The notes beneath the pieces were generated by a model that saw only the letters and a program-made list of their open reading frames with translations, made no database searches and was not told the origin of the DNA. Below, piece by piece: positions 2,900 through 35,155 of a stretch of DNA of 64,000 bases. Source of the DNA: Urechis unicinctus. Lineage: Eukaryota > Annelida > Polychaeta > Xenopneusta > Urechidae. Location of the stretch: positions 69,356,527 to 69,420,526 of the forward strand of contig CM067356.1 of NCBI GenBank assembly GCA_034190875.2, written 5' to 3'. Position 1 is the stretch's first letter. Each line of letters starts with the position of its first letter. Position numbers and translations under genes: made by a program.

Positions 2900-4439
<1,540 letters not shown>

Positions 4440-4440
<1 letters not shown>

Positions 4441-4860
4441 GCGAGGCAGAGTCTTTTGCTGCCACCTCCTGAAACTTTTTCTTTTATCGGCAGAGACTTC
4501 TGCTGCCTACTCTTGGAACTTTCTCTTTTATCTTCTGAGATGTCCCATACTGGCGTCTGAGATTTCCTCTACGGGTGATTTAGACTTTCTCTATTAATGT
4601 CGGAAAGTTATTCTACCGACGTCTGAGACCTCCTCTTCTAACGCTTGCGACGAACTCTTTGAACCTTTAAAAATATTCCTACTATTATCTGAGATTCCCT
4701 CAACCAACGTTTGGGATTTTACTATGACGGTCTGAGACTTCCACTGCTGTCGTCTAACTCTGCTACTGATATATCCTATACTCACGCCTGAGACTCCTTA
4801 TATTTACATCTGAAACTTCCTCCTCTAACGCCTGAAACAAAACGAAAACTATATTCAATG
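4440..4860. repeat. GTCTGAGACTTCC-type minisatellite
   Basis: Imperfect tandem units of roughly 45-50 bp. Each combines a TCTGAGACTTCCTCT-like core, a CTGCC/CTACC element and TTTCTCTTTTAT. The same family lies in inverted orientation at 36.57-37.39 kb, where it reads CAGCAGAAGTCTCAGACGATAAAAGAG. This places the third-copy block and the left arm flank in the same duplicated neighbourhood. Confidence 0.7.
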
Positions 4861-8330: not shown

Positions 8331-8491
8331 ACGCAAATCTGTTTAGCTCTTTAAGCTCATCAGTCAAACCTTTATGCATCTGCCGACCCACACCTCTTAA
8401 GAACATTACAGCGTCAAAGCAAAGTGGATGAGACTCAGAGACGTTCATCACCTATCCACGCAAGTGGTTTTTATCAGCCCACTTAGTCTTC

Positions 8492-8680
8492 TTGAACTTA
8501 AGACGTGGTGTACGAACTTGGGTTACCAATGGTTTTACTCGTGGTGGGAGCACTGCTACTTCCATTGGTTTTACTCATGACCTGGGTACTTGTGACACCA
8601 ATGATTTTACTCGTGGTGTAGGAGTTGGGGGCACCAATGGTTTGGCACGTGGCGATATTGACCCACATCAATACACATAA
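8492..8680 (+). other. Short ORF with repeated TNGFTRG motif, unrecognised
   Basis: A 62-codon frame containing a four-fold imperfect motif of the form TNGFTRG (VTNGFTRGG, TSIGFTHDL, DTNDFTRGV, GTNGLARGD). A copy with part of the same motif is in the right arm at 29521-29330 on the - strand (GTNGFTRGGS). It lies in Polinton-derived sequence between the polymerase N-terminal relic and the coiled-coil ORF. It may be a remnant of an element protein, and no function is assigned. Confidence 0.3.
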
Positions 8681-8755
8681 TAATTTTTAATTGCGCGGAC
8701 ATTTACACTCTGTATATATCATTATATTCAATAAACGAGGGCATAAGGTATAGAA

Positions 8756-9049
8756 ATGAACACCAAAGAGCGTATTGCTGAACTTGATGGTTTTGTAAAA
8801 GAGTTAGATCAACATTATCTGAGAGACGAGAAAATAGAACTGGAGGACGAGCTGAGAGATCTTGTGGGTGATATGGAAGGCCTGGAGAATATTATGAGAG
8901 ATCTTGTGGATGATTTTGAAGACCTGAAGAATATTATGAGAGATCTAGAGTTTAAGAACGATGATCGTATGGAGCGAGTGGAACGCCTAGAGGGTCACAC
9001 GAGCTTGTGTTATCTGACAAGGGAGATATTAAAAGGGCAAAGGGAGTGA
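8756..9049 (+). CDS. Small coiled-coil ORF linked to Polinton debris
   Basis: A 97-codon ORF starting MNTKERIAEL and rich in E, D, L and K, with heptad-like spacing. The unit (L/M)(E/D)DLxNIMRDL is duplicated internally (about residues 42-67). The N-terminus is closely shared with an ORF at 60195-59893 (MNTKDSIAEL), and decayed versions sit at 29.05-29.26 and 35.8-36.0 kb. In each of the three CAP-gene copies it directly precedes the polymerase tail relic. Its 3' end overlaps that relic in another frame. The repeated association suggests a small element-encoded protein. A structural or regulatory role is a guess. Confidence 0.45.
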   Translation: MNTKERIAELDGFVKELDQHYLRDEKIELEDELRDLVGDMEGLENIMRDLVDDFEDLKNIMRDLEFKNDDRMERVERLEGHTSLCYLTREILKGQRE

Positions 9050-9265
9050 AGAAGGTTGTGGTTAGGGCACAACTACACCATGCACAATACATATAATCTC
9101 TGTTCACATGGAAACAGTTCCATCATGGAATGAACATACTACACAGTGATGGTCACAAGATATATAGGCTACACGTCAACAAGGTGTCACTCTCTCCGTT
9201 TGACTCAAAAAGATGGATAGATTCGAAAGGAGTCAATATTGTAGCTTATGGACACACTAGTTTAC
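8998..9265 (+). pseudogene. C-terminal tail of Polinton-type DNA polymerase
   Basis: In a frame different from the coiled-coil ORF, the sequence reads SDKGDIKRAKGVKKVV, then FHHGMNILHSDGHKIY, then VNKVSLSPFDSKRW, ending near VAYGHTSL. This succession (AKGVKK, then K-rich, then NK-LS-DxKR, then YGH) is the characteristic C-terminus of these polymerases. At least one stop interrupts it (around 9090). The same tail is at 35808-35569 and, more decayed, near 29050-28815, always upstream of the CAP-plexin exon 1. Confidence 0.7.
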
Positions 9266-9275
9266 ATGTAAACTA
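9258..9275. promoter_or_regulatory. Perfect 18-bp palindrome (copy 1)
   Basis: TAGTTTACATGTAAACTA is a perfect inverted repeat located ~435 bp upstream of exon 1. It is unchanged in the other two copies (28791-28808 and 35538-35555), although neighbouring bases have diverged. Each half contains TGTAAAC/GTTTACA, a forkhead-like core. Regulatory function is inferred only from conservation. Confidence 0.45.
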
Positions 9276-9710
9276 ATTTTGGCAGAGGGTGGGCTAACTC
9301 TGCCAGTGCAAGCTGCAATAAAATGTGTAGTGTTGATGAAGGGCGGTGAACCAGAACCTCCACTCTCTATACTACTACACGGGTATGTTTCTTATTCGAG
9401 TCCTCTCATGCGTGGAACAGAAAACGACATTTGAGTTACTTTAACGTATGTCCGTAACGCATGAATGCTCACCAGACTTAAGCGAAAATAGTTGAAACCC
9501 ACGCTGTCCATATAGTCAGCGAAGAGTACGTACATTTAGGGTAACGCATATACGACAAAAAAAATGAAAAACTTAAAGTTCATGCTAGATTGGTTGAGAC
9601 GTCCCTTTTAAGGACGAGATGTTGTCGCTCGATGCAAGGAATTGCTTGGAGCGCAGTGTCAGAGGCAAAGAGCGGTGTTGTATCGGCGTGAGAAGACGCG
9701 CGTGACAAAT

Positions 9711-12700
9711 ATGACCGCAACAAGCTTGTCGGCAATATGCGTGATAGGCCTTTTACGTCTGACCAGCGGCCAGCCCCATCCTGACACAGGGCCTGGGCTA
9801 AAGACGCCTTGGCCCGAGCCAAAGCCGGCTTTGCCAAAGCCAATACCTGAACTTTATCCGCCACACGTTTCACATCCTTGGATGAACCATATGAGGTCGC
9901 AAAAGAACGCATTGACACGTGCGGATACTCGACAGAGCGATGCTCGTATGAGGAGGTCAGTGGCAACCGGGAGAGGGTTGTCAAAAACAGAGAAAACCCA
10001 CCTCCTTGATATTCATAACTACTTCCGCCGAATATCCGGTGCTACCGCCATGAATAAACTGGTGAGCTCATTTTCTTGGTATCTGATGCATACTGGCCAT
10101 TGATTACTCTGAAGTCTACATGACGTGCTATCATTCGTCACGATTTGACGGAGGCAAGGTTACGTCAGTGATCGAGACACACACAATGTGTTTCTGTGTA
10201 CGTGTTCCCATGTTTAAGGGTAATCAATGTGTTTCTGTGTAAGTGTTCCTCAGTGTAAACAATGTTTATATGTGTGCATGTCAGGTAAACAACGTGTATC
10301 AGTGTACTTATTCCCATATGTCAAGTCTAACAATGTGCATCGGTGTATTCGTCTGGCTCTGTGTAGTGGTTGTGTATGTGGATATGTGTTGTGGTTTTTC
10401 GTCTGGCTGTGTGTAGTGGTTGTGTTTGTGGATGTGTGTTGTGGTTGTTCGTCTAGCTTTGTGTAGTGGTTGTGTATGTGGATGTGTGTTGTGGTTGTTA
10501 GTCTGGCTGTGTGCTGTGGTTGTTGTCGTGGATGTGTGTTCTGGTTGTTCGCCTGGCTGTGTGTAGTGGTTGTGTATGTGGATGTGTGTTGTGGTTGTTC
10601 GTGTAGCTTTGTGTAGTGGTTGTTTATGTGGATATGTGTTGTGGTTGTTCGTCTGGCTCTGTGTAGTGGTTGTGTATGTGGATATGTGTTGTGGTCGTTC
10701 GTCTGGCTTTGTGTAGTGGTTGTGCATGTGGATGTGTATTGTGATTGTTCGTCTGGCTTTGTGTAGTGGTTGAGTGTGTGGATGTGTGTTGTGGTTGTTC
10801 GTCTGGCTCTCTGTAGTGGTTGTGTATGTGGATGTGTGTTGTGGTTGTTCGTCTGGCTTTGTGTAGTGGTTGTGTATGTGGATGTGTATTGTGTTTGTTC
10901 GTCTGGCCTTGTGTATGTGGTTGTGTATGTGGATGTGTGTTGTGGTCGTTCGTCTTGCTGTGTGTAGTGGTGTGTATGTGGATGTGTGTTGTGGTCGTTC
11001 TTCTTGCTATGTGTAGTGGTTGTGTACGTGGATGTGTGTTGTGGTCGTTCGTCTTAATGTGTGTAGTGGTTGTTTGTCTGACTGTTTGGTGATTGTGTAT
11101 CTGACTGTGTGTAGTTGTTGTTCGTCTGGTTGTTAGAATATATTGTTTGTCTGGCTGTATGTATTGGTTGTTCGTCGAGCTGTGTGTAGTGGTGTTTTGT
11201 CTGGTTGTGTATAGTGGTTGTTCGTCTTGCTGTGCGTATTGGTTGTTTTCCTGTCTGTTTAGTTGTTGTTGATCTGACTGTGTGTAGTGATTGTTAGTGT
11301 GGCTAGTTGAAGTGTTTGTTTGCCCGACTGTGTGTTATGTTTGCTTGTATGGTTGTGAGGATGGCTTTGCACATGGCTACGTATAGTGGCATGTTGTAGT
11401 CTTTTTGTGGGGTAGGGCGTTTTGATTATTTGTAGGATAGGGCTTTGTTGATTTTTTATGAGGACATGGCTGGTGATGTATTGAGGAATGTGGCTGATGA
11501 TGTAGTTATGAATGTGGCTGATGATGTAGATAGGAATGTTGCTGCTTATATAGTTTGGAATGTGGCTTATGGTGCAATAAGAATGTGGTGATGGTATTGT
11601 TAGGGATGTGGCTGATGATGTATTTAGCAATGTGGCTGGTGATGTAGTGAGGAATGTGGCTGATGAAGTAGTTGGTAATAAGGCTGATGATGTAGTTAGG
11701 AATGTGGCTAATGATGTAGTGAGAAATGTGGTTGATGATGTAGCAAGGGATGTTGCTGATTATATAGTGTGGAATGTGGCTGATGATGCAATAAGGAATG
11801 TGGTTGATGGTGTAGTTTGGAATGTGGCTGATGACGCAATAAGAATGTGGCTGACGATGTAGTATGGAATCTGGCTGATGGTGTAGTTAGGAATGTGGCT
11901 GATGATGTGGTTAGGAATGTTGCTGATGATGTACTTATGAATGTGGCTTAACAAGGGTAACGATCTTGACACACTGAATTTATTAGGCTGACGCCCTCGG
12001 TTGCTCTGTTTGAACGTCCTCTCTGTTACATCACTAACGCATGCGGTATAACGCCGTACCATATCGTAATAGAGGGAACTCGCACAAAGGCAGTCGATGT
12101 TGACCCTGACTCACGAACACAGGTTCACATTGTTTCCCCTGACACATTGGATCACGCACACAGAATAACATTGTTTACCCTGACAGATAGTAACACGCAC
12201 ACAGATTAACATTGTTTAACCTGACACATGGGAACACACACACAGATTCATATTTTTTACCAGGACTCATAGGAATACGCACACATATTTACGTTGTTTA
12301 CACTGACACATGGGAACACACACACATAAACACACTGTTTACCATGACACCGGTAACCGTTGCTTACCCTGACACATAAAAACACGTGTCACGTGTTGAT
12401 TGCCCTGATACAACATTTAACTTATGTAGAAATGAGTTAGTCCCGGAGGTTGGCACACAGCTTAACCTGATATAAGCAAACAGCCCACACCGACGCAAAT
12501 ACGCAGCTACTTCATACAAACGCGCAGTTTGCCCTGTTACATACACATTTGTTCTAACACACAATTACACGGAATCAAGCTCGATGCTTACCTTAATACC
12601 AACACATTATTCTCTTTGATATGCATGATCTATGATGACACATCATTTACAGTGATACGGGCATATTTCTATAAACTCTATGATTACGCAGCTCACGAAG

Positions 12701-15700
12701 CTATAGCTAGTTATTTAGAATAACGTATACCGATTTAGAATGGACCGTCTCATGGTAAACACATATCGTATGATTCGGTACGCGTATAGCAATGCGGTTG
12801 ACGTTCAACAAGAATATTACATCTCCTTAATAATGCGAGATATGTAATTTGTCCTGCTTAGTCCAAGAAAATGTCACCCCTCTTGTTTCCAGTTTAATCC
12901 GAGAGATACCATATTCCTCTATAATTTGAGAAATATCATGTTTCCTTTTTAATCTGAGCGTCATCATTTTTGTAGCTACCTGCGTATTTCATCATTACAC
13001 GCACGTTGTGTTCCCCATAATGTTGCCGTTGTCGATCTCGGCTCATTTTTGGCACGGTGTGGGCCGTGTGTTGTTTCAGTACTGGAGCGATGATCTGGCG
13101 AGACATGCGCAGACGTGGGCAGAAGGCTGCAATTTCAACCACGACCAACGTTCGGGGGCACCGAATAAGTATGTTTCACCGCTTAAATTTTACATTTATT
13201 TGAATTATCGCATCATTCTCGTCGCTATTTGGTGCTACACTGCTAGGTGTGTTGTGTCAGTATCGGTCAGAATCTGTACGCCAGTACGCATGTACGTGTC
13301 AACCTGACGCAAGCTCCCCAGCTCTGGTACAACGAAATCCAATACCACGACCTGGCTACACGGGATTGCCAAGATGGCATTGACCCTATAACAATGAATG
13401 ACATCGTGTGTGGCCACTACACTGCGGTAAATCGTTCTTCCTACAGTTAAATACTTTATGTGCGTATGTGTACACAAACACCGTATGCAAAAGCCGAAGT
13501 TTTCGTAGGCGACAACTGTTACACAGCCCTCACGTCTACGCATGTTGCGTTGTTGGTGCTGTTAATGTTACAGATGGTTTGGGCCACGACACTACAGCTG
13601 GGATGTGGCTATTACAAATGTCCCTCACTCAGAGGCGTACAGGTTGCCAGCAACGCAAGCTACGTCGTCTGTAACTACAGCCCAGCGTAAGTTATTCTAA
13701 TGCCACAAATTCTTTCCAACCAGACGCGCAGCATTGAAGTCTTGTTCAGACTTGGTATATGATCCATGCTATCCGTGTTCTGGAACAGCTTGCATCGTCT
13801 TGTGCGTATTTCTGTTATATCGATGTAAGATGACCTTTAGAGAGACACCAAGGGGAAGTTTATTGTTCTTATTGAAAAAAGTTATGAAAGTCGAGATTGC
13901 TGGCGTGATGTTGGTTAATTACGAGATGATTCGGGGATTACTGGCGTGATGGTGGTGAATTACGAGGCGATTCCGTGATTTCCGTGTGATGTCGATAAAT
14001 AACGAGATGATTAAGTGATAACTGTGTGATGTTTGTGAATTACGAAATGATTCAATGATTACAGTGTGTTGTTGGTGAATTACGAGACAATTCAGTGATT
14101 ACTGTGTGATGCCGGTGAATTACAGTACGACTGAGTGATAACTTGTGTGATGTTGGTAATTACGATACGAATCAGTAATTACAGGTGTAATGCAGGTGAA
14201 TTTCGATACGATTGAGTGATTAATGTGTGATATCGGTGAATAACGAGATGATTCAGTGACTAATGGTGTGATGTCGGTGAATTAAAACACGATTAAGTAA
14301 TTACTGATGTTGTTGAATAACAAGATGATTCAATGATTATTGGTGTGATGTTGGTGAATTACGAGACGATTCAGTGATTACTGGTGTGACGTCGGTGAAT
14401 AGTGGGATGATTGAATGGTTACTGCTGTACTATCCGTCGGTGATGAATAACCCATCAATGATTGCTCAGAAATCGCTAGATGCCATATTATCTTATTTTC
14501 TTCTATGCAGAGGCAATGTCAGAAGCCAGCCTCCCTTTGTCCGCGGCGCAGCATGTAGTGGATGTACCCACATGAAATGTGATAATGGTCTTTGTGATTG
14601 TGAGTTTTCTATATTAATTTCTAACCAAATGAGTGTTATAAAGTTGATAACGATTTCCAACACATGGCTACTGGTTCTTCGTATGGAAAGATAGGGTTGT
14701 TTGGAGCGAGGCGGTGGACTAGGTCAGTGAGTTAGGGGCGGGATAGTTAGGCGGGGATGCGGGGTATAACTAGCACAATCCACCTGAGTGAACGCGACAT
14801 TATGGGATTCTTAGGAATTGTGACTCCGACGCTGTGGTGTGTGACAGGGATGTGCTTCCACTGTTCTGTCTCAGGATACAACTGTACACAATGTGCATCG
14901 AGAAATGGCGACCTCCCCAGCAGATGTACCGGTACGTATATCATCAGTGCTTCGTTTAGCACTTGTTAAACCCCATACTACCAGACTACAGTGGAGGCAA
15001 ACCAGTTCCATTGTCAAATCATCCTCAATTTTGGCAGTGTTTTGGTTTCTAATCGGGCATTTAAATCTGATTAGGTTAGGATGCTTGGCGTGTGTATAAG
15101 ACCCATTGTTTAATATAATCGAAGCAAAGGGTCGAACTGAAGCGTAGTTTATAAAACTGATATGAATATAACATTGTTTATTTGTTGTGAGCAATATCTG
15201 ATGAAGTCTATTGACTAACGACAAACACTTGTTGTTATTATACTTTTTTGTTGATCTACCTTACAGTCAGGGGTTGATAGCAGCTCCATCTAAAGGATCT
15301 ACCGTCAGACACGTGCAAGTGAGGCTGACGTCGCGGTTCCTCTTATTTACTTCCGGCAGTAACAAGGTCACGCTACGCCGCGAGCAGTTCTTTAGCATCA
15401 TCTGGGAACTGACCGTCACAACAACAAGGTGAAGCTAAAGTTACTGCGCGTCAGAACTGATTTGTTCATGGCCTTATCTACATGTTCCAATTCAACCGAT
15501 CGAATATAAGGTGGGAATGTATCCCAGATAGCTACCATCTCGTAAGTGGAAAGTTGTTGATCACTGTTATGTTTTTTTCTGACAATGGTCATTTCTGTCT
15601 GGTTATTTCTTAGAAAGTAAGATCTTGAATTTATGATAAATAATTGATAATGGTTCTCGTCGTTATTTATACCTTGAACATGATCACAAATATTTTTATC

Positions 15701-18068
15701 CAAGCAATTTTGATTATTTGGTAGGAATGAGATAACATTAAATGATGTAAGTGTGAGACTATTCTCAGCCATCATGGACAGTAGTGTGTATGCACCATAG
15801 ACATCGTTCCTATCAGAACCATTTCCCACTGAAACCTTTAACGCACGCGTGGCAGCCATCATACTTTGTAACTTCCGATAGTTCACGTCAGCTATGTGCA
15901 AACTCTGATCAAGATCGATTTGTGACAGATTGAATGTCTACACCCTGGAATTCCAAGCGCCACCTATGCCGCAAAATTACTCTGGACAAGATTGGCAGAT
16001 CTTCCTCTTTACTGACGACGCAAACTACTGTGACCTCGGCATGACCTTCGCTTTCTATGGCGACCCATCTGTTAACTCGATCCAACCACGCAACACCATC
16101 TTAGGGTAAATAAATAGATCTTGTGTTTTACTATATGTGGTAGGAGCGAAACGGATGGTGACTGTTATCCAACATGTTTTTGGATTTTTCCAGAGGAGGA
16201 ACGAGGATGACTGTGTCTGGCAGGAACTTGGACGCTGTGGAGAAGGCTCAGATCGTCATCAAAATGACAAACTACAAACCGAGTGGAGATGAAGTCACCA
16301 AATTTAATGGCGTGAGTGCCGATAGACAGCGTTATAGATCAACAGAGTCTGGTTTAACTTGTCCGTGTAAAACTTGTGACAGGTGACCCCTGTGGGCATG
16401 ATACAGCTGCATACTTGAGAAGCATTAACATAAACCGTGATTCATTCTTCATCTACCTGCGTATTACCGTAATTACTAACCGCCTGTGTTGTTGATTGTG
16501 TGAAGGAGCCATGTGACCATCAGTCCTATGGTAACGTGTTCATATGCACCACGCCTGAGGTCACACCATCACCCAGAAACCATACCAGTCGACGCAAACG
16601 GCAGACCGAGGACGCCATGGTTAACACGGACCAGCTCGAGTTCGAAATCAATGTCGAATTTGACGGCGCCACTTTTGTTCTGCCGTTGTATGACAACCCA
16701 AGCAACTGTGGCAGTGTCTGCGTCTTTCAAGATCCACACGTGTACACATTCTTTCCCCTTGAGACGGAGTGTGCTGACCGATCCCAAATCACAATTCATG
16801 TAGGCTCTCTATCAACAGAGTTATCTAGTCTGACATATGCGTCGTCGATATTATAATTGGTTTAAATAATTGAGGAAAGGCAACGTTCATTCCCCCGTTT
16901 GATATGTGCATATGACAAACAGCAATAAAACCCATGTTCTCTTGTCACCTAAGAAATACGCTATTCGATCTTTGAATGTGTGGTTGTATCAGAGTTAGCT
17001 GCGTTTGCATTAGGTTAGACTGTGTGTTTGTATTAGGGTCACTATGTGTGTTGTATCGTGGTAAAATGTGTATTTGCATCCGGGGAACTATGAGTTTGTA
17101 TCTTGGTTAACTTTGTATTGTGGCAGGGTGACTGGTTGGACTTGAGCGTCAGTAAGAATGATTACAGCATCAGCGTGGGACATCGCGGCGTGTGTGTGGT
17201 TAGTTCCATCACCACTAACGTCATCCGATGCCGCCTTATCCATTATGGCTTACAACGCAACGGATCGCTGCCCGTAGTGGTAATACCAGATTACAATATT
17301 TTTTTTGTGTGGATACTGTCAAATCGATTGGACAGAAACATACTGCTCAGGGGTGTATAGAAACATTTCATCAAAAAGCCATTCAGTGTAAAAAAATATT
17401 AAAAATAATCAGATTGGATCTTCATTACTTTTGAAAAGGACATCCTTGAAAAAGTCGAGTCCAATCGACAATCCCGCCTATTTTTACAATAGTTATTGAG
17501 CCCCGTTGCTTAGTTTTGGCAGGACGTGAACAACAGATCAAATATGGCTCGAGGTAGGCACTGTTAGACACTTGAAGCTGATAATGGAGGGAATTTGAGT
17601 GTTAGTCAGTTGATTTTGAAGGCAGCTGTGATCAAACATTTTGAGTTTAAATTAAATGATTACCAAGAGAGAGTTTTGATCGAGTCATAATAGTATTTTG
17701 ATAGACACATAAAATAGAGTAATAATTGAATGAAAACGCAGGACAAATCTTTGAGATGCAATATTATAATAAACACATTTATCCCCAGGCTAAACAAGCC
17801 CCTAAATATAAGGTCAAATTTTATATTTCAACACTAACTTCTTTCTGAACTCTATTTTGATTAGTCATATTGTCACTCTTTCCTGCAGGTGCGCGTAGGC
17901 CGACTGGTCTTCTTGGTCGCCTACCTCTGCAACGTCAGCAGTCCAACTGTTGGTGTGCCGTTAAACCCTATACCTACCAGCAGTGCTACGTCCAGCATCA
18001 ACTGGCCCCGGATTGATGGAGCGGCTGGGGATGGTATTCTGCATACAATCAATGATTATCGCGAATGA
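9711..18068 (+). CDS. CAP domain-plexin-like IPT protein, + copy (13 exons)
   Basis: Exons: 9711-10061, 13080-13168, 13261-13426, 13574-13686, 14511-14599, 14848-14931, 14992-15044, 15271-15428, 15929-16105, 16194-16311, 16506-16799, 17127-17279, 17889-18068. All have GT/AG borders and compatible phases, giving 674 aa. I started at the ATG that gives the signal peptide SLSAICVIGLLRLTSG. A proline-rich stalk follows (PEPKPALPKPIPELYPP). The CAP domain (about 95-255) shows HNYFR, GQNLYAS, LWYNEI, CGHYTAMVWATT and YVVCNYSPAGN. A Cys-rich stretch (about 250-298) follows. Then come plexin-like parts: GGTRMTVSGRNL, QDPHVYTFFP, SVGHRGVCVV and VVVRVGRLVF. A furin-like SRRKRQ lies in exon 10. Unlike the - copy, the last exon is frameshifted: it ends INDYRE with no membrane helix, so the product may be secreted or the gene decaying. 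Exon 7 (14992-15044) has a weak donor (gtttct) and is the least certain; its choice keeps the whole frame open in both copies. Confidence 0.8.
10170..11300 (+). repeat. Intron 1 minisatellite A (~50 bp units)
   Basis: Tandem units of about 50 bp read TGGTTGTGTATGTGGATGTGTGTTG then TGGTTGTTCGTCTGGCTGTGTG, well ordered between about 10340 and 11090 and looser afterwards. The first part (10170-10330) is of the TGTGTTCCCATGTGTCAGGGTAA type described for minisatellite C. Matching reverse-complement arrays are at 26.5-27.7 kb and, shorter, 33.9-34.2 kb. ORFs through it are artefacts. Confidence 0.9.
11460..11948 (+). repeat. Intron 1 minisatellite B (24 bp units)
   Basis: About 20 tandem copies of a 24 bp unit, AGGAATGTGGCTGATGATGTAGTT with variants. 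Because 24 is divisible by three, one frame stays open and encodes repeated VRNVADDV. That is a property of the unit, not evidence of a protein. Reverse-complement arrays are at 26025-26430 and 33280-33900. Confidence 0.92.
12060..12420 (+). repeat. Intron 1 minisatellite C (~45-50 bp units)
   Basis: Units of the form ACACACAGATTCACATTG then TTTACCCTGACACATGGGA, six or more degenerate copies. Equivalent arrays sit in intron 1 of the - copy (25560-25870) and beside the orphan exon (34230-34680). Confidence 0.85.
13890..14450 (+). repeat. Intron 4 minisatellite (~40 bp units)
   Basis: About 13 units resembling GATTACTGGTGTGATGTTGG then TGAATTACGAGACGATTCAGT fill most of intron 4, between exon 4 (ends 13686) and exon 5 (starts 14511). 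The reverse-complement array occupies the same intron of the - copy (23510-23950). It was therefore present before the inverted duplication. Confidence 0.88.
16970..17115 (+). repeat. Short repeat in intron 11
   Basis: Four to five units of ~28 bp resembling GTGTGTTTGTATCAGGGTTAACT lie just before the acceptor at 17126. The - copy holds the same array at about 20845-20990. The location next to the branch-point region is conserved. Confidence 0.65.
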
Positions 18069-18124
18069 CCATCTGTAAATCACTTACGATTAAACCTAGT
18101 TGTTAAAACTTTTTCCGTTGACTT

Positions 18125-19110
<986 letters not shown>

Positions 19111-19823
19111 GTGACGTAATGACCAGTGATATTATGCCAGTGGCGTATTTATGATATTTGTAGCCAAAGCTTAATAACGAAATTAAATGTTTATGTACCT
19201 AAAGTGATTTTGAATTTTTTTCTCATTCAGTGACACAGTGATTTTTTTTTGCCGATTATTGTTCCCCTATCTCTTATACACGCGTGCAAGCATTTTAATT
19301 CAATCCACCATCTTATTTACAATAAATATACACGCATAAAGGAGAAAACCTATTAGTCTTATAAGCTAAGACAACAACGTTAGTTAAAATAGTGCGTGTA
19401 ATTACGGTAAACGCAAGCACCTCGTGCTACTGTCGGATAAACGTAACATAAATGCGGATTGATTGATCGCCATTTTGATATTAATTCAAAAAGGTCAGTA
19501 CCAAGGCAACGTTCTTGACGTCACAAGAATTTCTCAATGAATGATTCATCTTAGGTGACAGTTTCATTCAATGTTGACTGATCGCATTGACACAACCAAT
19601 GACATCACTTTGGGCAATTATGCTTAAACATTTAGAGAAAAACAGTTCCTGTGAAATCGGTTATCATTGATCCAATAAATGTTATGCATGGTAATTGTAC
19701 CAATTACAACATATGTACAAATTCTCCGCCCCCTCCTTTAATAGCACATACGTCAGTTTTTGTGACCAACTTTTAGAACAAAGCCAATTGTTCGGCATTC
19801 TTTCAACCTGACAAAATAAGACG

Positions 19824-19829
19824 TTTATT
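19824..19829 (-). terminator. Polyadenylation signal AATAAA for - copy
   Basis: On the - strand AATAAA occurs 34 bases past the stop codon of the - strand CAP-plexin gene (stop at 19865-19863). This is a short 3' UTR if used. The + copy has no equally placed signal. Confidence 0.45.
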
Positions 19830-19862
19830 TGCTCCTCAGTAATCTGTTTTTAAACATCGTAA

Positions 19863-22800
19863 TTAATTGCGACTGATCCGCTTGTTAACACGCCAAAGAC
19901 AGTAAACACATGCTATGATACAGAACGGTGCGATACAAAGCATATTCAATGCCCAAATCAGAGGCCCGGTGATGCTGTCCGTAGCAGAGGTAGCTGGACT
20001 GCTGGTAGGTGTAGGATTTAACGGCACACCAACAGTAGTGGGACTGTTGGCGCCGCAGAGGTAGGCGACAAAGAAGACCAGATGACCTACGCGCACCTGC
20101 AGGAAGGAGTGACAATCTGACTAATCAAAATAGAGCTCAGAAAGAAGTTAGCGTTGACAATATAAAATTTGACATGAAATTTAGGGGCTAATTTGAACTG
20201 TGGATAAATGTGTTGATTATAATATTGCATCGCAAAGATTTTGTCAGCGTTTTCATTCAATTATTACTCTATTTCTGTGTCTATATAAATACAATAATTA
20301 CTCGATCATAACTCTCTCTAGGTAATCAGGTAATGTAAACACAAAATGTTTGATCATTTTTATATATATATCTAAACCTTGAAAACTGCCTTCAAAATCA
20401 ACTAACTAACACTCAAATTCCGTCCATTTTCAGCTTCAGGTGTCTAACAGTGCCTGCCTCGAGCCATATTTGATCCGTCTTTCACGTCCGGCCAAAACTA
20501 AGCAACGGGGCTCAATTACTATAGTAAAAATAGGTGGGATTTTCAAGGATATCCTTTTCAATATTTTTACACCAAATGACTTTTGATGGAATATTTCCAT
20601 AAACCCCTGAGCAGTATGTTTCTGTCCAATCGATTTGACAGCATCCACACACAAAAAAATGCAATCTGGTATTACCACTACGCGCTGCGGTCCGCCGCGG
20701 TATGGCCAATCTTTGATAAGGTCAGGGCGGCATCGGATGACGTTAGTAGTGATGGAACTAACCACACACTTGCCACGATGTCCAACGCTGATGTTGTAAT
20801 CATTCTTACTGGCGCCCAAGTCCAACCGGTCACCCTGCCACAATACAAAGTTAACCACGATACAAACTCATAGTTCCCCGGATGCAAACACACAGTTTAC
20901 CACGATACATCACACATAGTTACCCTAATACAAACACACAGTCTAACCTAATGCAAACACAGCTAACTCTGAAACAACCACACATTCAAAGATCGAATAG
21001 CTTACTTCCTAGGTGACAAGAGAACATGGGTTTTATTGCTGTTTCCCATTTGCACATATCAAACGGGGGAATTAATGTCGCCTACCATTTTCCTCAATTA
21101 TTTAAACCAACTATAATATCGACGACGAATATTTCAGACTAGAGCGCATACATTAATTGTGGTTTGGGTTCGGTCTGCACACTCCGTCTCAAAGGGAACG
21201 AATGTGTACACGTGTGGATCTTGGAAGACACAGACACTGCCACAGTTGCCTGGGTTGTCATATGACGGCGGAACAAAAGTGGCGCCGTCGAATTCGACGT
21301 TGATTTCGAACTCGAGCTGGTCTGTGTTAACCATGGCGTCCTCGGTTTGACATTTGAGTCGACTGGCATTGTTTTTGGGTGGTGGTGTGACTTTAGGCGT
21401 GGGACATATGACCATGTATCTATTGGACTTACATGGCCACTTCACACAATCAACAACACAGGCAGTTAGTAATGACGGTAATACGCAGGTAGATGAAGAA
21501 TGAATCACATTCTATGTTAATGCTTCTCAAGTATGCAGCTGTATCATGCCCACAGGGGACACCTGTTACGCAAGTTGTATTCGGACAAGTTACACCAGCA
21601 TCTGTAAATAACGCCGTCTATCGGCACTCACGCCTTTGAACACAGTGACTTCATCGCCACTCGGTTTGTGGTTCGTCATTTTGATGACAATCTGAGCCTT
21701 TTCCACAGCGTCCAAGTTCCTGCCAGACACAGTCACCATCGTTCCTCCTCTGGAAAAATCCAAAAACATGTTGGATAACAGTCACCATTCGCGTCGCTCC
21801 TAAGCGAGGCATAAGTCTACCAGTTGATTCTCCGCATATAGTAAACCACAAGATCTATTTATTTACCCTAAGATGGTGTTGCGTGGTTGGATCGAATCAA
21901 TAGATGGGTCGCCATAGAAAGCGAAGGTAATGCCGAGGTCACAGTAGTTTGCGTCGTCAGTAAAAAGGAAGAGCTGCCAATGTAGTCCAGAGTATTGTTG
22001 CGGCATAGGTGGCGCTTGGAAATCTAGTTTAGAGCGATCCAACCTGTCACAAATCGCTGAAGTGAACTATTGAAAGTTACAACGTATAGTGGCTGCCACG
22101 CAAGTGTTTAATGTTTCAATGGGAAATGGTTCTGATAGGAACAATGTCTATGGTCCATACGCGCTACTGTCCATGATGGCTGAGAATAGTCTCAGACTTA
22201 CATCATTTAATGACATCTCTTTCCAAATGAATAAGCAAAATTATCTGGATACAAATATTGGTGATCATGTTCAAGGTATAAATAACGAAAAAAACCATTA
22301 TCAATTATTTGTCATACATTCAAGATCTTACTTTCTAAGAAATGACCAGACAGTCTACCATTGTCGGAAAATAACATAACAGTGATCTATAAATTTCCAC
22401 TTACGATAGCTATCTGGGATACATTCCCACCTTATATTCGATCGATGGAATCGGAACATGTAGATAAGGCCATGAACAAATCAGTTACACGTTCTGACGC
22501 GCGGTATGAAAAGCCTCACCTTGTTGCTGTGACGGTCAGTTCCCTGATGCCGCTAAAGAACTGCGCGTTGCGTAGCATGACCTTGTTACTGCCGGAAGTA
22601 AATAAAGAGACCAACGACGTCAGCCTCACTTGCACGCTTCTAACGGTAGATCCGTTAGATGGAGCTGCTATCAACCACTGACTGTAAGCTAGATCAACAA
22701 AAAAGTATAATAACAACAAGTGTTTGTCGTTGATCAATAGACTTCATCAGATATTGCTCACAGCAAATAAACAATGTTATATTCATATCAGTTTTATAAA

Positions 22801-25800
22801 CTACGCTTCAGTTTGACCCTTTGCTTCGATTGTATAACATAATGGGTCTTAACCACACGCGAAGCATCCTACCTATATCAGATTTAAATGCCCGATTAGA
22901 AACCAAAACACTGACAAAATTGAGGTTTGTTTGACAATGCAACTGGTTTGCCTCCACTGTAGTATGGGGTTCAACAAGTGCTAAACGAAGCACAGATGAT
23001 AAACGTACCGGTACACTGGCTAGGAAGGTCGCCATTGCTGGATCGACATTGTGTACAGTTGTATCCTGAGACATAACAGTGGTAGCACATCCCTGTCACA
23101 ACACACCAAGGCGTCGGAGTCACATTTCTTAACACACCCATAATGTCGCGTTTGCTCAGGCGGATTGTGCTAGTTACACCCCGCATCTCCACCTTACGAT
23201 CCCGCCCCTTAACTCACTAACCTGGTCCACCGCCTTGCTCCAAACATCCCTCTCTTTCCATGCGAAGAACAATAGCCGTGTTTGAAATCGTTATGAACTT
23301 TATAACAATCATTTGTTAGAAATTGATATAGAAAACTCACAATCACAAAGACCATTATCACATTTATCGCGGGTACATCCACTGCATGCAGCGCCGCGGA
23401 CAAAGGGAGGCTGGCCTCTGACATTGCCTCTGCACAGAAGAAAATAGGATGATATGGCATCTAGCGATTTCTGAGAAATCATTGATGGGTTATTCATCAC
23501 CGACGGATAGTATAGCAGTTCTCACTCAATCATAGCTCAATTCACAAGCATCACACCAGTAATCACTGAATCGTCTTTTTATTCACCAAAATCGCACCAT
23601 TAATCACTGAATCATCTCGTAATTCACCAACATCACGCAAGTAATCTCTCAATCGTGTCGTAATTCACCAGCATCACACAGTAATCACTGAATTGTCTCG
23701 TAATTCACCAACAACGCACTGTAAACATTGAATCATCTCGTTATTCACAAGCATCACTCAGTTATCACTGAATCATCTCGTTTTTTATCGACATCACACG
23801 GAAATCACGGAATCGCCTCGTAATTTACCACCTTTACCCCAGTAATCACCGAATTATCATGTAATTCACCAACATCACACCAAAAATCACTGAATCATAT
23901 CGAAAATTACCAACATCTCGCCATTAATCACGCCTCTCAAAACCATTTCGATAAGACCAATAACTCTCCCCTTGGTGTCTCTCTAAAAGTTATCTTACAT
24001 CGATATAACAGAAGTACGCACAAGACGATGCAAGCTGTATAAGAACACGGATAGCATGGATCATTTACCAAGTCTGAAAAAAAACTTCAATGCCGCGCGT
24101 TTGGTTGGAAAGAATTTGAGGCAATAAAAAAACTTACCCTGGGCTGTAGTTACAGACGACGTAGCTTGCGTTGCTGGCTACCTGCGCGGCTTTGAGTGAG
24201 GGACATTTGTAATAGCCACATCCCAGCTTCCGTGTCGTGGCCCAAACCATCTGTAACAACAACAGCAACAACAACGTAACATGTGTAGACGTGAGGGCTG
24301 TGTAATGGTTGTCTCTGATGAAAACTAAACCTGTTGGATACGATGTTTTTTATACATATACACACATATAGTATTTAACTGTAGGAAGAACGATTTACCG
24401 CAGTGTATTGGCCACACACGATGTCATTCATTGTTATAGGGTCAATGCCATGTTGGCAGTCCAGTGTAGTCAGGTTGTAGTATTGGATTTCGTTGTACCA
24501 GACCTGGAGAGCTTGCGTCAGGTTCACACGTACATGCGTACTGGCGTACAGATTCTGACCGATACTGACGCACCACACATAGCAGTGTAGCACCAAATAG
24601 CGACGGGAATGATGCGATAATTCCAATAATTGTTAAATTTCAACGGCGAAACATACTTCTTTGGTGGTATCACCAAATGGCAATGGGAATGATGCGAGAA
24701 TTCAAATAAATGTCAAATTTAAAGCAGTGAAAAATACTTATTCGGTGCCCCCGGAGGTTGGCCTCGGTAGAAATCGCAGCCTTCTGCCCACGTCTGTGCA
24801 TGTCTTGCCAGGTCATCGCTCCAGTACTGAAACAACACATGACCCTCACCAGGCCAACAATGAGCCGGGATTGACAACGGTAGCGTTATGGGGAACGCAA
24901 CGTGCGTGTAGCTACAAACATAATATTGCTCGGAATAAAAAGATAACATGATATTTCGAAGATTATAGGGCACATATGGTATCTTTCTGATTAAACAAGA
25001 AATACGTTATTTCTCAGATCAAACAATAGGGGTGAAATATTTTCGGATTAAGCATGACAAATAATTTAATCCCGCATGATTAAGGAGATGTTAAATTCTT
25101 GGTGAACGGCAACCTCATCGCTATAATCTCACAATAGGTGTTTACTTAACCGGTATACAATATTCTAAATAACTAGCTATTGCTTCGTGCGAAGCGTAAT
25201 CATAGAGTTAAACATGCCCGCATCATTGTAAATGATGTTACCTCATAGATCATGCATATCAAAGATAACAATGTGTTGGTATTAAGGTAAGCAATATATT
25301 TGTATAACATTAAACTGTCTGCAAGTATGCAGGTAATTCGTGCGTTTGTATCAATATATGTGTTATTATCAAGATAAACATCGAGCTAGATTCTGTATAA
25401 CTGTGTGTTAGACAAAATGTGTATTTATCAGGTTAATCTGCGGGTTTGTATGAAATAGCTGCGTATTTGCGTCGGTGTGGGCTGCGTGCTTATATCAGGT
25501 TGAGATGTGTGTCAACCTCCGGGACTACCTCATTTCTACATGAGCTAAATGGTGTATCAGAGCAATCAACATGTGACAGGGTGTGTTTTTATGTGTCATG
25601 GTAAACACCGTGTACCGATGTGTGTCAAGGTAAGCAGTGTGTTTATGTGTGTGTGTTCCCACGTGTCATGGTAAACAACGTGAATATGTGAGCGTGTTCC
25701 CATGTGTCAGGGTAAAAAAATTAATCCGCGTGCGCGTTCCCAAGTTTCAGGTCAAACAATGTTAATCTGTGTGCGTGTTCTTATGCGTCAGGGTAAACAA

Positions 25801-28354
25801 TGTTATTCTGTGTGCGTGCTCCAATGTGTCTGGGGAAACAATGTGAATCTATGTTCGTGAGTCAGGGTCACCATCGTTTGCCTTTTGTGGGTTTTTCTCC
25901 TATTACGTTACGGTATTGCGTTATACCGCCGCGTTAAGTGATGTAACAGAGAGGACGTTCAAACTGAGCTACCGAGGGTGTCAACCTAATACATTCAGTG
26001 TGTCAAGATCGTTACCATTGTCAAGCAACATTCCTAACTACATCATCAGCCACATCACCAAAAACATCATCAGCCACATTCCTCACTACATCACCAGCCA
26101 CATTCCTAAATACATCATCAGCCACATTCCTAACAAAACTATCAGCCACATTGTTAATGCATCATCAGCCACATTCCAAACTAAATCATCAGCCACATTC
26201 CTAATTACATCATCAGCCACATTTCTCACGACATCATTAGCCACATTTCTAACTACATTATCAGCCATATTACAAACTACATCATCAGCCACATTTCTCA
26301 CTCCATCATTAGCCACATTGCCAACTACCTCATCAGTAACTTTCCTAGCCACATCATCAGCCAAATTACTCACTATATTACCGGCCACGTTCCTCAATAC
26401 ATCCCCAGCCATGTCCTCATAAAAAATCAACAAAGCCCTATCCTACCAATAACCACGACGCCCTACCCCACAAAAACACTATTACATGCCACTATGCGTA
26501 GCCATGTGCAAAGCCATCCTCACAGCCAGACAAGTAAATATAACACACAGCCGGGCGAACAAACACTTCAACAAGCCAAACTAACAATTACTACGCACCG
26601 TAAGAAAAACAACAACTAAACAGTCAGACAAACAACCACTACGCACATCCAGAAAAACAACCAATACACACAGCAAGACAAAGAACCAATACACACAGCC
26701 AGACAAACAATATATTCTAACAACCAGGTGAACAGCAACTACACAGTCAGATACACAATCACCAAACAGTCAGTCAAACATCCACTACACACACATATAG
26801 ACGAACATCCACTGCACACAGTCTGATAAACAACCACTACACACATCCATAAAACAGCCACTTCACACAGCCAGATATAAAACTACTACACACAGCCAGA
26901 TAAACAACTAATACGAACAGCAGGATGAACAACTACTACCCACAGCTACACAAACAACCAATATGCACAGCCAGATAAACAAACACAATACACAGTCAGA
27001 TAAATTACCAATACTCACAGCAAGATGAACAACAACTACGCACAGCGAGATAAACAACCAATATACACAGCCATACAAAGAACCGCAACGCACAGCCAGA
27101 CAAACAACCACTACATACATCAAGACGAACAACAGCTACGCACAGCTACGCACAGCCACACAAACATCCACTACACACAGCCAGGCGAACTACACACAAC
27201 CACACAAACAACAAATTCGCACTGTCAGACGAACAACAACTACACACAGTCAGACGAACAACACCCAGCCGGATAAGCAATCACTACCAAAGGTCAAATA
27301 AACAACTGCAACCAACAGCCAGACAAACCGCTAATAGACACAGCAAGATGAACGACCACAACACACATCCACATACACAACCACTACACACAGCCAGACG
27401 AATAACCACAACACACATCCACATACACAACCACTATACAAAGCCAGACGAACAACCACAACACACATCCACATACACAACCACTACACACAGCCAGACA
27501 AATAACCACAACACACATCCACATACACAACCACTACACACAGCCAGACGAATAAGCACAACACACATCCACATACACAACCACTACACAGAGCCAGACG
27601 AACAACCACAACACATATCCCCATACACAACCACAATACAAAGCCAGACGAACGACCACAACACACATCCACATACACAACCATTACACACAGCCAGACA
27701 AACAACCACTAGACACGCGCACCGATGCACATTGTTAGACCTGACATACGGGAATAAGTACACAGATACACGATATTTACCTGACATGCACACATATAAA
27801 CATTGTTTACACTCAGGAACACTGACACAGAAACATACTGATTACCCTGAAACATGGGAACAGGTACACGGGTACACATTGTTTGTGTCTCGATCACTGA
27901 CGTAACCTTGCCTCCGTCAAATCGTGACGAATGATGGCACGTCAAGTATACTTCAGAGCAATCAATGACCAGTATGCATCAGATACCAAGAGAATGAGCT
28001 CACCAGTTTATTCATGGCGGTAGCACCGGATATTCGGCGGAAGTAGTTATGAATATCAAGAAGGTAGGTTTTCTCTGTTTCTGACAACCCGCTCCCGGTT
28101 GCCGCTGACCTCCTCAGACGAGCATCGCTCTGTCGAGTATCCGCACGTGCTAATGCGTTCTGTTGCGCCCTCATACGTTTCAACAAAGGATATAAAACGT
28201 GCGGCGGATAAAGTTCAGGTATTGGCTTTGGTAAAGCCGGTTTTGGCTCGGGCCAAGGCGTCTTTAGATCAAGCCCTGGGTCAGGATAGGGCTGGCCACT
28301 GGTCAGACGTAGGAGGCCCATCACGCATATTGCCGACAAGCTTGTTGTGGTCAT
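19863..28354 (-). CDS. CAP domain-plexin-like IPT membrane protein, - copy (13 exons)
   Basis: Exons on the - strand: 28354-28004, 24826-24738, 24564-24399, 24250-24138, 23429-23341, 23092-23009, 22956-22904, 22677-22520, 22043-21867, 21749-21632, 21439-21152, 20834-20676, 20096-19863, giving 692 aa. Order: signal peptide (SAICVMGLLRLTSG), proline-rich stalk, CAP (HNYFR, GQNLYAS, WYNEIQYYN, CGQYTAMVWATT, YVVCNYSPGGN), CRISP-hinge-like Cys cluster (CSGC, CDNGLC, CYHC, CTQC). The plexin-like region has GGTMVTVSGRNL, LEFEINVEFDGATF, FQDPHVYTF, ISVGHRGKCVV and VVVRVGHLVFFVAYLCG. It ends with a Ser/Thr/Pro linker, one helix (PLIWALNMLCIAPFCIIACV, about 661-683) and tail RVNKRISRN. It is predicted type I membrane-bound with almost no cytoplasmic part, so without the plexin GAP domain. 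CAP His is Gln in CGQYT, the usual GEN Glu is Gln in GQN, and the furin site is replaced (SRLKCQ). It is the better-preserved copy. Function is unknown; an adhesion or recognition role is a guess. Confidence 0.82.
23510..23950 (-). repeat. Intron 4 minisatellite of - copy
   Basis: About 11 units of CACCAACATCACACxAGTAATCACTGAATCGTCTCGTAATT type, the reverse complement of the array at 13890-14450 and in the same intron. Confidence 0.88.
25560..25870 (-). repeat. Intron 1 minisatellite C of - copy
   Basis: Degenerate units with GTGTGCGTGTTCCCATGTGTC then AGGGTAAACAATGTTAATCTG, equivalent to 12060-12420. A few further units lie at 27715-27880 next to exon 1. Confidence 0.85.
26025..26430 (-). 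repeat. Intron 1 minisatellite B of - copy
   Basis: About 17 copies of the 24 bp unit, read here on + as CTACATCATCAGCCACATTCCTAA. Same position within intron 1 as the + copy array. Confidence 0.92.
26500..27720 (-). repeat. Intron 1 minisatellite A of - copy
   Basis: CACACAGCCAGACAAACAACC units, loosely ordered from 26500. From 27345 to 27705 they become a regular ~50 bp array with ACACACATCCACATACACAACCACTA. This array is the counterpart of 10340-11300. Confidence 0.9.
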
Positions 28355-28790
28355 ATTTGTCACGGATGTCTTCTCACGCTGATACAACACCGCTCTTTAC
28401 CTCCGATACTGCGATCCTAGCAATTCCTTGCATCGAGTGGCACTTTCTCGTCCTCAAATGGGACGTCTCAACCAATCCAGCATGAGCTTTAGGTTTTTCA
28501 ATGTTTTGGTCGTAAAGGCGTTACCCTAAATGTACGCACTCTTCGATGACTATATGGACGGCGCGGGTTTCAGCTATCTTCGCGTTTAGTCTGGCGAGCA
28601 TTCATGCGTTAAAGACATAGTTCAAAGTAGCTCAAATATTGTTTTCTGTTCCACGCATGAGAGGATTCGCATTAGAAACATACGCGCGTAGTAGTATAGA
28701 GAGTGGCGGTTCTGGCGCATCGCTCTTTATCAACACTACATCACTTATTACAGCTTGCTCAGGCAAAGTCGGCCCACCCTCTACCAAAAT

Positions 28791-28808
28791 TAGTTTACAT
28801 GTAAACTA
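28791..28808. promoter_or_regulatory. Perfect 18-bp palindrome (copy 2)
   Basis: TAGTTTACATGTAAACTA, identical to the copies upstream of the other two exon 1 sequences; ~437 bp upstream of the - copy start codon. Confidence 0.45.
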
Positions 28809-28814
28809 GTGTGT

Positions 28815-29265
28815 CCATAAGCTAAAGTATTGACTCCATTCGAACCTATTTATCTTTTTGGGTCGGAGAGAGTGACACCTTGTTGACGTGAAGCCCATAC
28901 ATCTTGTGACCATCACTGCATAGTATGTTCACTCCATGATGGAACTGCTTCCATGTAAACAGAGATTCTATGTACTGTGTATGGTGTAGGTGTCCCTTAC
29001 CGCAACCTTCTTCACTCACTTTGCCATTTTAATACCACCCTTGTGATACATCACAATCGTGTGTGACACTTACTAACAAGTTTCACTATGCGTTCCACTT
29101 GCTGCAATAGATCATCGTTCTTAAACCCTGGATATCTCATAATATTCTTCAAGTCCTCCATATCACCCACAAGATTTCTCAGCTCGTCTTCCAGCTCTAT
29201 TTGCTCGTCTCTCGATGATGTAGATCTAACTCTGTTACAAAACCTCCATGTTTAGTGATACGCTA
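28815..29265 (-). pseudogene. Polymerase tail and coiled-coil relic, right arm
   Basis: On the - strand 29265-29055 aligns with the coiled-coil ORF of the left arm but is riddled with stops and has lost the start. 29050-28815 aligns with the polymerase C-terminal tail (FHHGVNILCSDGHKMY, then VNKVSLSP). It is more decayed than the left-arm version. Confidence 0.6.
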
Positions 29266-29629
29266 TTTGGTGTTTATTTCTATACCTGATACCTCTCGTT
29301 TTTGTTATAGAGTGTAAACGTCTGCACAGTTAAAAATTACTATCGAGGTGGGTCAATATCGCCACGTGCCAAACCATTGTAGCCCCTAATTCCTGCACTA
29401 CCATTTTAACCATTGGTTCCCCTAGTACCCGGGCCATGAGTAAACTGGTGGAAGCAACAATGCTCCCACCACGAGTGAAACCATTGGTACCCCCAGTTCG
29501 TACACCACGTTTTAAATTCAAGAGGACTAAGTTGGCTATTAAAAACTATTTGCGTGGACGCTGTAATGTTCGTAAGATATATGGGTCGGCAGATGCATTA
29601 AGTTTTGACTGATTAGCATAAAGAGCAAA

Positions 29630-29795
29630 TCAGATTTGCGTGTCTGTAGTTTGCCCTGCAGATGAGAATCATGAAGCAAGCCGAAGATGGCGGCACTGAG
29701 TATGTCGAGCCTGGATTGCGTAATGAGCAGGATGAGGTGCTCACCTCAGAAGATATTAACAATAGGGTGTGCCAGAGCAACGCTAATATCCGCTG
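29630..29795 (+). pseudogene. N-terminal fragment of Polinton-type polymerase
   Basis: Reads MRIMKQAEDGGTEYVEPGLR then QDEVLTSEDINNRVCQSNA. It matches the reverse complement of 8185-8330, the N-terminal extension of the polymerase relic. It ends abruptly at the edge of the inverted duplication. Confidence 0.6.
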
Positions 29796-33253: not shown

Positions 33254-33279
33254 TATGCACATCCCCATTATATTAGCAG

Positions 33280-33900
33280 CAAAATTCCTAACTATATCAT
33301 CAGCCACATTCCTAACTACATCATACGCCACTTTCCTCGCCACATCACCAGCCACTTTCCTTACTATTTCATCAGCCACATTCCTAGCTATATCCACAGC
33401 CACATTCCTTACTACATCATATGCCACATTCCTCACCACATCCTCAGCCACATTCCTAGCTATATCAACAGCCACATTCTTTACTACATCATATGCCACA
33501 TTCCTCACCACATCCTCAGCCACGTTCCTCACTACATCATCAGCCACGTTCCTAACTATATCCTCAGCCACATTCCTAAATATACCATCAGCCAGTTTCC
33601 TAACTATAACATCAGCCACATTATTCGCTTCATCATCAACCTCTTTCTGTAAGCACATGATCAGCCTCTTTCTTTTAGCACATCATCAGCCACTTTACTG
33701 ACTTCATCATCCCTCATATTCTCACCTATATCATCAGCCACATTTCTCACTTCATCATCAGCCTTATTTTATACTACATCATTAGCCACATTCTTCACTA
33801 TATCGTCAGCAAATATCTCAGCACATCATTGGCAACGTTCCTCACTACATCATCAGCCTCATTCTTAAGTACATCATCACCCACATTCTTCACTTAATGA
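33280..33900 (-). repeat. Minisatellite B, third copy
   Basis: About 25 units of the 24 bp repeat, read on + as CACATTCCTAACTACATCATCAGC. Two-unit higher-order repeats of 72 bp are visible at about 33380-33530 (TTCCTAGCTATATCAACAGC then TACTACATCATATGCC). Confidence 0.9.
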
Positions 33901-34680
33901 TCAAACTAACACTACACACAGCCAGATAATGAGCCATTACACACAGCCAGGCAAACAACCTATACTCACAACCAATCAAATAACTAATTCAAATAGCCTG
34001 ACGAGCAACTACTGCATACAGTTAGATATACATCCTCTAGACACAGCCACACAATCAGTCAATACACACTATCAGATAACCAATCACTGAACAGTTACAA
34101 CCACAACACAAAGCCAGATAAACAGTCACAACATACACACACATAGCCAACCATTACACACAGCAAGCATGGCAAACACTACACACAGCCAGATAAACAG
34201 CCGCAGCACACATCCACGTGCACAACCAATAATTGACACGCACACGTATACACATTGTGTAACCTGACATGTGGGAACAAGTAAAGAGAAGCACATTGTT
34301 CACTTGATATGCTTGCAGATATACATTGTGTAACCTGACGTATGGGAACAAGAACACATATATACATTGTTTACCTGACACGCTTACATATGCACATTGT
34401 TTACCCTGACATACATAAAAACACATACACAGAAACACATTGTTTAACCTGACATATGGGAACACGCACACATTAACTCATTGTTAACCCTGACACACAC
34501 AGGACAAGAAACTTGCACGAAAATACACTGTGTATCCTGATACACACGGGAATGCGTACACATAAACAACATTGTATACCCCGACACGCGGAAAAACGTA
34601 TACAGAAAAATAGTTTACCATGATACAAACAGGAACACACGGAAAAACACATTGTTTAGTATGCCCATGCGAGGAGATAC
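33900..34680 (-). repeat. Minisatellites A and C, third copy
   Basis: 33900-34220 holds CACACAGCCAGATAAACAACC units (family A). 34230-34680 holds about nine units with ACATTGTTTACCTGACAC and GGGAACA (family C). The order relative to exon 1 (C, A, B) matches the + copy's first three arrays. Confidence 0.85.
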
Positions 34681-34804: not shown

Positions 34805-35155
34805 CAGTTTATTCATGGCAGAAGCACCAGACGCTCGGCGGAAGTAGTTATGAATATCAAGGAGGTGGGTCTTCTCTGTTTCTGACAACCCTCTTCCGGT
34901 GGCTGCAGACCTCCTCATTCGCGCATCGCCCTGTCTCATATCGGCACGTTTCAAGGCGGTCTTGTGCGATGTCATACGGTTCATCCACGGATGTGAAGCG
35001 TGCGGCGGATAACGTTCAGGTCTTGGCTTTGGCAAATCCGGCAATGGCTCGGGCCAAGGCGTCTTTAGCCCAGCCCCTGGGTCAGGATGGGGCTGGCCAC
35101 TGGTCAGACGCAGGAGGCCTATCACGCATATTGCCACCAAGCTTGATGCGGTCAT
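34805..35155 (-). pseudogene. Orphan exon 1 of a third CAP-plexin copy
   Basis: A 117-codon frame beginning MTASSLVAICVIGLLRL, exactly the 351 nt of exon 1 in the other two copies, with proline-rich PEPLPDLPKPRPERYPP and the CAP start LLDIHNYFRRASGA. It ends at AAACTG followed by gtgagc, so the donor is intact. No exon 2 to 13 sequence follows: intron 1 breaks into polymerase debris at ~33.25 kb. The frame itself has no stop, which suggests either recent truncation or splicing to exons elsewhere. Confidence 0.75.

Follow-up and report, generated by a model that had tools for sequence, protein, structure and literature searches.

A probable CAP-plexin chimeric gene, present as a tandem array, in Urechis unicinctus

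Two gene models and their relatives

The window studied here, a stretch of 64,000 nucleotides (nt) of Urechis unicinctus DNA (G000:C15:69356527-69420526, searched together with the rest of the genome, whose 926 contigs add up to 1.19 Gb), holds two related gene models, copy A (+, 9711-18068) and copy B (-, 28354-19863), in each of which a CAP domain is predicted to be followed by plexin-type IPT modules. Splicing of the exons listed in the original prediction reproduced its coordinates and totals, with open frames of 2025 nt for copy A and 2079 nt for copy B and with GT-AG at all introns of both. Using Pfam cut-offs of 21.1 bits for CAP and 20.9 bits for TIG, we found both families on the spliced models, thereby bearing out the earlier claim that a CAP domain is joined to plexin-type IPT modules. 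CAP scored 73.9 bits on exons 1-6 of copy A and 71.8 bits on the 678-residue protein of copy C, an intact relative (+) lying 110 kb upstream, with TIG scoring 57.6 bits on the later exons of copy A and 46.7 bits on the same copy C protein, in two stretches each time.

When the window was read together with 130 kb upstream and 70 kb downstream (264 kb, including 7800 N), at least seven copies were found, A to G, six of the seven having CAP and then IPT exons in order. Copy D (+) has an ambiguous frame and copy E (-) consists of CAP exons 2-4 plus a trace beyond. Copies F and G (+) lie downstream of the window; F has a stop in exon 4 and is without exons 1, 2 and 12, and in G exons 1 and 2 are missing, as is the acceptor of exon 3, and exon 10 begins with a stop. 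Exon 1 was also seen by itself, in the window (Table 1) and upstream of copy D, where one occurrence is complete and another comprises the first 97 nt.

The original prediction had given both genes 13 exons. Upon alignment of the exon 6-8 region across the seven copies, of which copy E aligns only in part, its 53-nt exon 7 and the acceptor of its exon 8 were rejected. Copies C, F and G have no AG preceding that exon 7 and none at the acceptor of that exon 8, and C and G carry a 1-nt deletion inside the 53-nt sequence, which is probably a spurious exon. An alternative acceptor 11 bases upstream of that of the rejected exon 8, reading tctag in B, C, D and G and ccag in F, is shared by these paralogues and fits the phase of exon 6, joining it straight on, thereby giving 12 exons, 2037 nt and 678 residues, with equal exon lengths in B and C. 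The numbering used from here on follows this model. Because of a ctac at the alternative acceptor, copy A has no canonical in-frame 12-exon model, and a frame change has put its last exon out of the frame that encodes the membrane segment, which copy B keeps. Copy A had been taken as a sound gene; with both the acceptor of exon 7 and the transmembrane frame gone, it is probably decaying, or else the maker of a shorter product.

Copies A and B lie tail to tail on an imperfect inverted duplication (8181-12611 versus 25353-29791 and 12585-18014 versus 19956-25293, with 76-84% identity by piece), flanking a repeat-rich centre at 18136-19456. The repeat family of that centre recurs at 2918-4445, with 78-90% identity in pieces, and is perhaps a mobile element.

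The CAP head, the stem and the membrane end

The CAP half, that of a CAP/SCP protein, is encoded by exons 1-5. It has a signal-like N-terminus (hydropathy 2.2 over 11 residues), followed by an R-x-R-R sequence ahead of the CAP domain, and within the domain we see signatures that we take to be of the CAP1 and CAP2 type; as for exon 1 of copy B, the Pfam CAP matches behind its assignment are those on copies A and C. The best match in the Protein Data Bank (PDB) for the CAP part of copy C was GLIPR1, with an E-value of 6.7e-25. Many but not all CAP proteins have a site made up of two histidines and two glutamates. Judged from the GLIPR1 alignment, and with the four residues being presumably those that we assigned, one histidine and one glutamate are kept, the other glutamate is glutamine in both B and C, and the second histidine is lysine in copy C, glutamine in copy B and retained in copy A. 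The 678-residue protein of copy C gave no Pfam Crisp match. Elsewhere in the genome, an SCP gene (L004, C2:59.19 Mb) has a similar hinge followed by a phase-1 donor, one codon earlier than in exon 5, and none of the TIG matches listed for the genome lies near it.

For the stem, the IPT part of copy A matched Met (E 6.4e-7) and plexin-A1 (6.9e-5) in the PDB, and a profile made from the IPT parts of four copies matched Met at 5.3e-10 and plexin-A1/A2 at about 1e-5. The same genome has a gene at C2:19.284-19.304 Mb with a Sema exon (25.5 bits, cut-off 23.7) and PSI and IPT exons, followed closely, in the same orientation, by plexin GAP matches (C2:19297054-19300369), and by this domain content it is a true plexin. 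We delimited its exons ourselves, using GT-AG signals and open frame. The PSI exon of this plexin (TVYKCHVLGQDCSQC) and exon 6 of the CAP-IPT genes (MCYRCYVSGYNCTRC) each begin in phase 1, with four residues ahead of the first cysteine that they share, and the later IPT exons of the plexin agree with exons 8-12 in position and phase (2-2, 2-0, 0-0, 0-0 and, for the start of exon 12, 0-). A pairwise search against this plexin gave 48.5 bits and an E-value of 8e-11 over 191 alignment columns, as calculated without composition correction, and the plexin sequence RIRRQTQQEN aligns with RRKRQTEN or similar in the CAP-IPT genes, with RLKC in copy B. The donor of the stem would be a plexin or a Met-type gene, Met having the best PDB score. 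We judged that no single exon contains a complete domain. The plexin itself is part of a densely packed tandem cluster of genes of the plexin type, in both orientations (C2:19.177-19.597 Mb; L020, L041 and L042). Of the 88 plexin GAP matches listed, 79 lie in this cluster, where they form 16 to 21 groups according to the spacing chosen, and many TIG exons are there as well; for Aplysia, the accessible part of one survey gives two plexins (PMC6374515).

Copy B ends in a transmembrane segment, with the stop 13 residues past a 19-residue hydrophobic window, and in B, C, D and G, of which D and G are damaged or ambiguous in frame, 19 residues of this segment have a hydropathy of 2.29-2.5. The Pfam scan of the copy C protein gave no family besides CAP and TIG, hence neither Sema nor a kinase, and the frame closes after a short tail. 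Contig C15, which carries the array, had none of the 10 listed genome matches to Sema and none of the 88 to the plexin GAP domain (Plexin_cytopl), both counts being lower bounds and one of the Sema matches lying in a 3469-residue frame that adjoins a run of N. These results agreed with the earlier statement that Sema and GAP are missing. By the domain tests the predicted CAP-IPT protein, whose head is a CAP domain, is neither a plexin nor a Met receptor.

Table 1. Positions of the features in the window, with exons numbered after the 12-exon model.
Feature	Position	Strand	Remarks
Copy A, exons 1-6	9711-10061, 13080-13168, 13261-13426, 13574-13686, 14511-14599, 14848-14931	+	
Copy A, exons 7-12	15260-15428, 15929-16105, 16194-16311, 16506-16799, 17127-17279, 17889-18068	+	exon 7 without acceptor
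Copy A, lost acceptor	15258..15259	+	AC (ctac) where B, C, D, F and G have AG
Copy A, rejected 53-nt exon 7	14992..15044	+	probably intron sequence
Copy A, furin-like site	16590..16601	+	RRKR, at the place of RIRR in the C2 plexin
Copy B, exon 1	28004..28354	-	signal-like peptide (28354-28295), proline-rich pro-region, RLRR site, start of CAP domain
Copy B, exons 2-4	24826-24738, 24564-24399, 24250-24138	-	remaining CAP domain (GQYTAMVWATT, YVVCNYSPGGN)
Copy B, exon 5	23341..23429	-	CAP hinge (PPFVRGAACSGC..CDNGLCD); ends in phase 1
Copy B, exon 6	23009..23092	-	PSI-like; starts in phase 1, like the plexin PSI exon of the same genome
Copy B, rejected 53-nt exon 7	22904..22956	-	probably intron sequence
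Copy B, exon 7	22520..22688	-	acceptor AG 22690-22689; probably first half of a degenerate IPT (by eye)
Copy B, exon 8	21867..22043	-	end of degenerate IPT and start of first clear IPT
Copy B, exon 9	21632..21749	-	first clear IPT (GGTMVTVSGRNL)
Copy B, exon 10	21152..21439	-	end of first clear IPT, linker, start of last IPT (QDPHVYTF)
Copy B, counterpart of furin-like site	21361-21350	-	reads RLKC; in exon 10
Copy B, exon 11	20676..20834	-	last IPT (ISVGHRGKCVV)
Copy B, exon 12	19863..20096	-	end of last IPT (VRVGHLVFFVAYL), stalk, transmembrane segment 19961-19905, tail YCLWRVNKRISRN, stop
Solitary exon 1 copy	34805..35155	-	no other exons matched beside it in the window

As for the further contents of the window, tandem repeats of 50 nt and 24 nt occur in intron 1 of copy A (10348-11948) and of copy B (26024-27716), with related tandem repeats at 33277-34484, adjoining the solitary exon 1 copy. 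Antisense open frames at 15419-15937 (-) and 22346-22678 (+), in or overlapping intron 7 of A and B, are protein-like (AIWDTFPPYIRSVELEHVDKAMNKS..). By eye, the open frame at 62361-63101 (+) resembles leucine-rich repeats, and the frame at 50502-50855 (-) looks like a retroelement integrase core.

Origin of the fusion and competing explanations

Taken together, the gene models point to one chimeric CAP-plexin gene, present as a tandem array, having CAP where plexins carry Sema and encoding a type I membrane product, a reading to which we give a probability of roughly 0.78. A CAP/SCP gene, corresponding to exons 1-5, may have been placed ahead of the PSI exon of a plexin or Met-type gene by a join within phase-1 introns, and such a phase-1 to phase-1 join would explain the fusion. 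The predicted product starts with a signal peptide and a pro-region removable at R-x-R-R, followed by the CAP head, a PSI-like knot, one degenerate and two clear IPT modules, and a transmembrane helix with a tail of about 10-13 residues.

That such a protein is kept was suggested by a comparison of B with C over the twelve exons and ten introns, the long intron 1 being left out, in which the 2037 nt of exon sequence were free of insertions and deletions (indels) and the 3140 nt of intron sequence had 32 (Fisher P = 1.3e-7); with exons 6-12 taken by themselves, an absence of indels had a Poisson probability of 3.6e-6. The identity of B and C was 94.0% in exons and 91.2% in introns, and their ratio of non-synonymous to synonymous substitution rates (dN/dS) was 0.54 over exons 1-6 and 0.73 over exons 7-11. 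Exon 7 alone gave dN/dS values of 0.74-6.6 over the pairs, as formed among the copies other than D, with dN > dS in nine of the ten. We do not claim positive selection in this exon because B versus C gave P = 0.07, the pairs are non-independent and exon 7 of copy A is without an acceptor.

Several observations weigh against the fusion as described. The PSI exon of the C2 plexin ends in phase 0 and exon 6 ends in phase 1, with exon 6 also having fewer cysteines; the Pfam check outlined in the original prediction, which put CAP and TIG above their cut-offs, gave no PSI match in the models of A or C. The first IPT of the C2 plexin has no counterpart in the CAP-IPT genes, exon 7 being by eye loosely like the first half of the next one. 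Exons of A and B are 88.3% identical, no higher than the 89.5% of their introns, dN/dS over the pairs ranged from 0.47 to 1.14 for the CAP segments and from 0.70 to 0.95 for exons 7-11, and five of the seven copies are damaged, truncated or without a settled frame. Constraint thus appears weak, with relaxed selection possible, and the protein would be either fast-evolving or weakly constrained. Cross-species protein searches for both halves, in which animal coverage looks thin, found four CAP proteins, two of them with a further domain other than TIG and none with TIG; as one such search scored the 7998 candidates sharing most words, this negative does not count as evidence that relatives are absent. 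Finally, exon 6 runs through its donor to a nearby stop in both A and B (CTGTYIISASFSTC and CTGTFIICASFSTC), so that a CAP-only product would be possible.

This last observation would suit two adjoining genes, with a CAP gene closing at exon 6 and an IPT gene after it. We consider that arrangement unlikely, as exon 6 is PSI-like and hence belongs to the IPT side, yet fits exon 5 in phase, and as the exon order is kept in six of the seven copies. Moreover, introns 5 and 6 in copy B, being 248 and 320 nt long, could hardly accommodate another promoter and signal peptide, and by eye no signal-peptide start was seen between exons 5 and 8. Another explanation would be that the fusion arose and was duplicated in an array now decaying, with all copies, including B and C, being pseudogenes or nearly so. 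The lost sites, stops, truncations or unsettled frames of A, D, E, F and G agree with such decay, as does a dN/dS near 1 for many pairs, but in B and C all introns retain GT-AG and the 678-residue frame is intact, and the absence of exon indels between them, set against those in the introns, makes us doubt it strongly. Use of the 13-exon form, with its 53-nt exon, slightly different linkers and copy A in frame, is very improbable, for although open with GT-AG borders in A and B, it would need two AGs that C, F and G do not have and an exon that a deletion disrupts in C and G.

If the gene is indeed one chimeric CAP-plexin unit, it would be read as one transcript and its product displayed at the cell surface, with no signalling of its own, and furin-type proteases could cut the pro-region as well as the RRKR loop, which copy B has lost. 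The plexin stem would display the CAP head, and the head would bind rather than cut, since two of the four site residues are replaced in B and C. Without a domain in its tail, the product would serve as a decoy, co-receptor or adhesion protein. Our guess, prompted by the same replacements together with the tandem arrangement and the fast evolution or weak constraint, would be a non-enzymatic binding or decoy surface protein of immunity or reproduction. A wider proposal is that the array represents a new class of proteins for surface recognition, expanded in tandem and evolving fast, with CAP in place of the Sema head and all signalling parts gone, acting as decoys or partners of plexins or semaphorins or in immune or gamete recognition; we hold this as tentative and less likely than not. 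To call it a new class of guidance-like protein, as had been suggested, goes past the evidence, the genes being known here from a single species.

Relation to known systems

The CAP-IPT gene would, on these data, be a new domain arrangement of two known families. The original prediction knew of no described family with this layout, and in our literature searches, too, no description of a CAP-plexin or CAP-TIG fusion turned up, which, as strict term combinations were used, is weak evidence. A Sema-based survey, in its accessible part, reports that plexins have kept their domain structure in all clades covered, and Met and Met-LP receptors are described there for molluscs; that part of the survey, with its Sema-selected proteins, mentions no CAP head (PMC6374515). 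Surveys keyed to Sema or GAP would miss the CAP-IPT gene because both are absent from it. If the fusion is real, it would clearly exemplify the swapping of a head through exon shuffling, with an exon junction that can still be read, and it would show that the plexin stem is usable as a display scaffold.

Compared to the CAP superfamily proteins of the GLIPR1/CRISP type, the product shares the CAP domain and the cysteine hinge, GLIPR1 being the best PDB match of its CAP part, but differs by its IPT stem and membrane anchor, by the replacement of two of the four site residues in B and C, and by having no Pfam Crisp match. It resembles the Plexin/Met family in its PSI-like exon, its IPT modules with a membrane-proximal last one, and its transmembrane helix, and the plexin gene on C2 in particular in the intron positions and phases of exons 8-12 and in a furin-like site within the same IPT linker; it is unlike that family in carrying CAP instead of Sema and a short tail with no GAP or kinase domain. 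The Met-LP receptors of Lophotrochozoa and Echinodermata, as presented in the accessible part of the survey, are likewise a plexin ectodomain recombined with another module, but they have a kinase inside the cell (PMC6374515), whereas in the CAP-IPT gene it would be the N-terminal head that was swapped, with no intracellular domain left.

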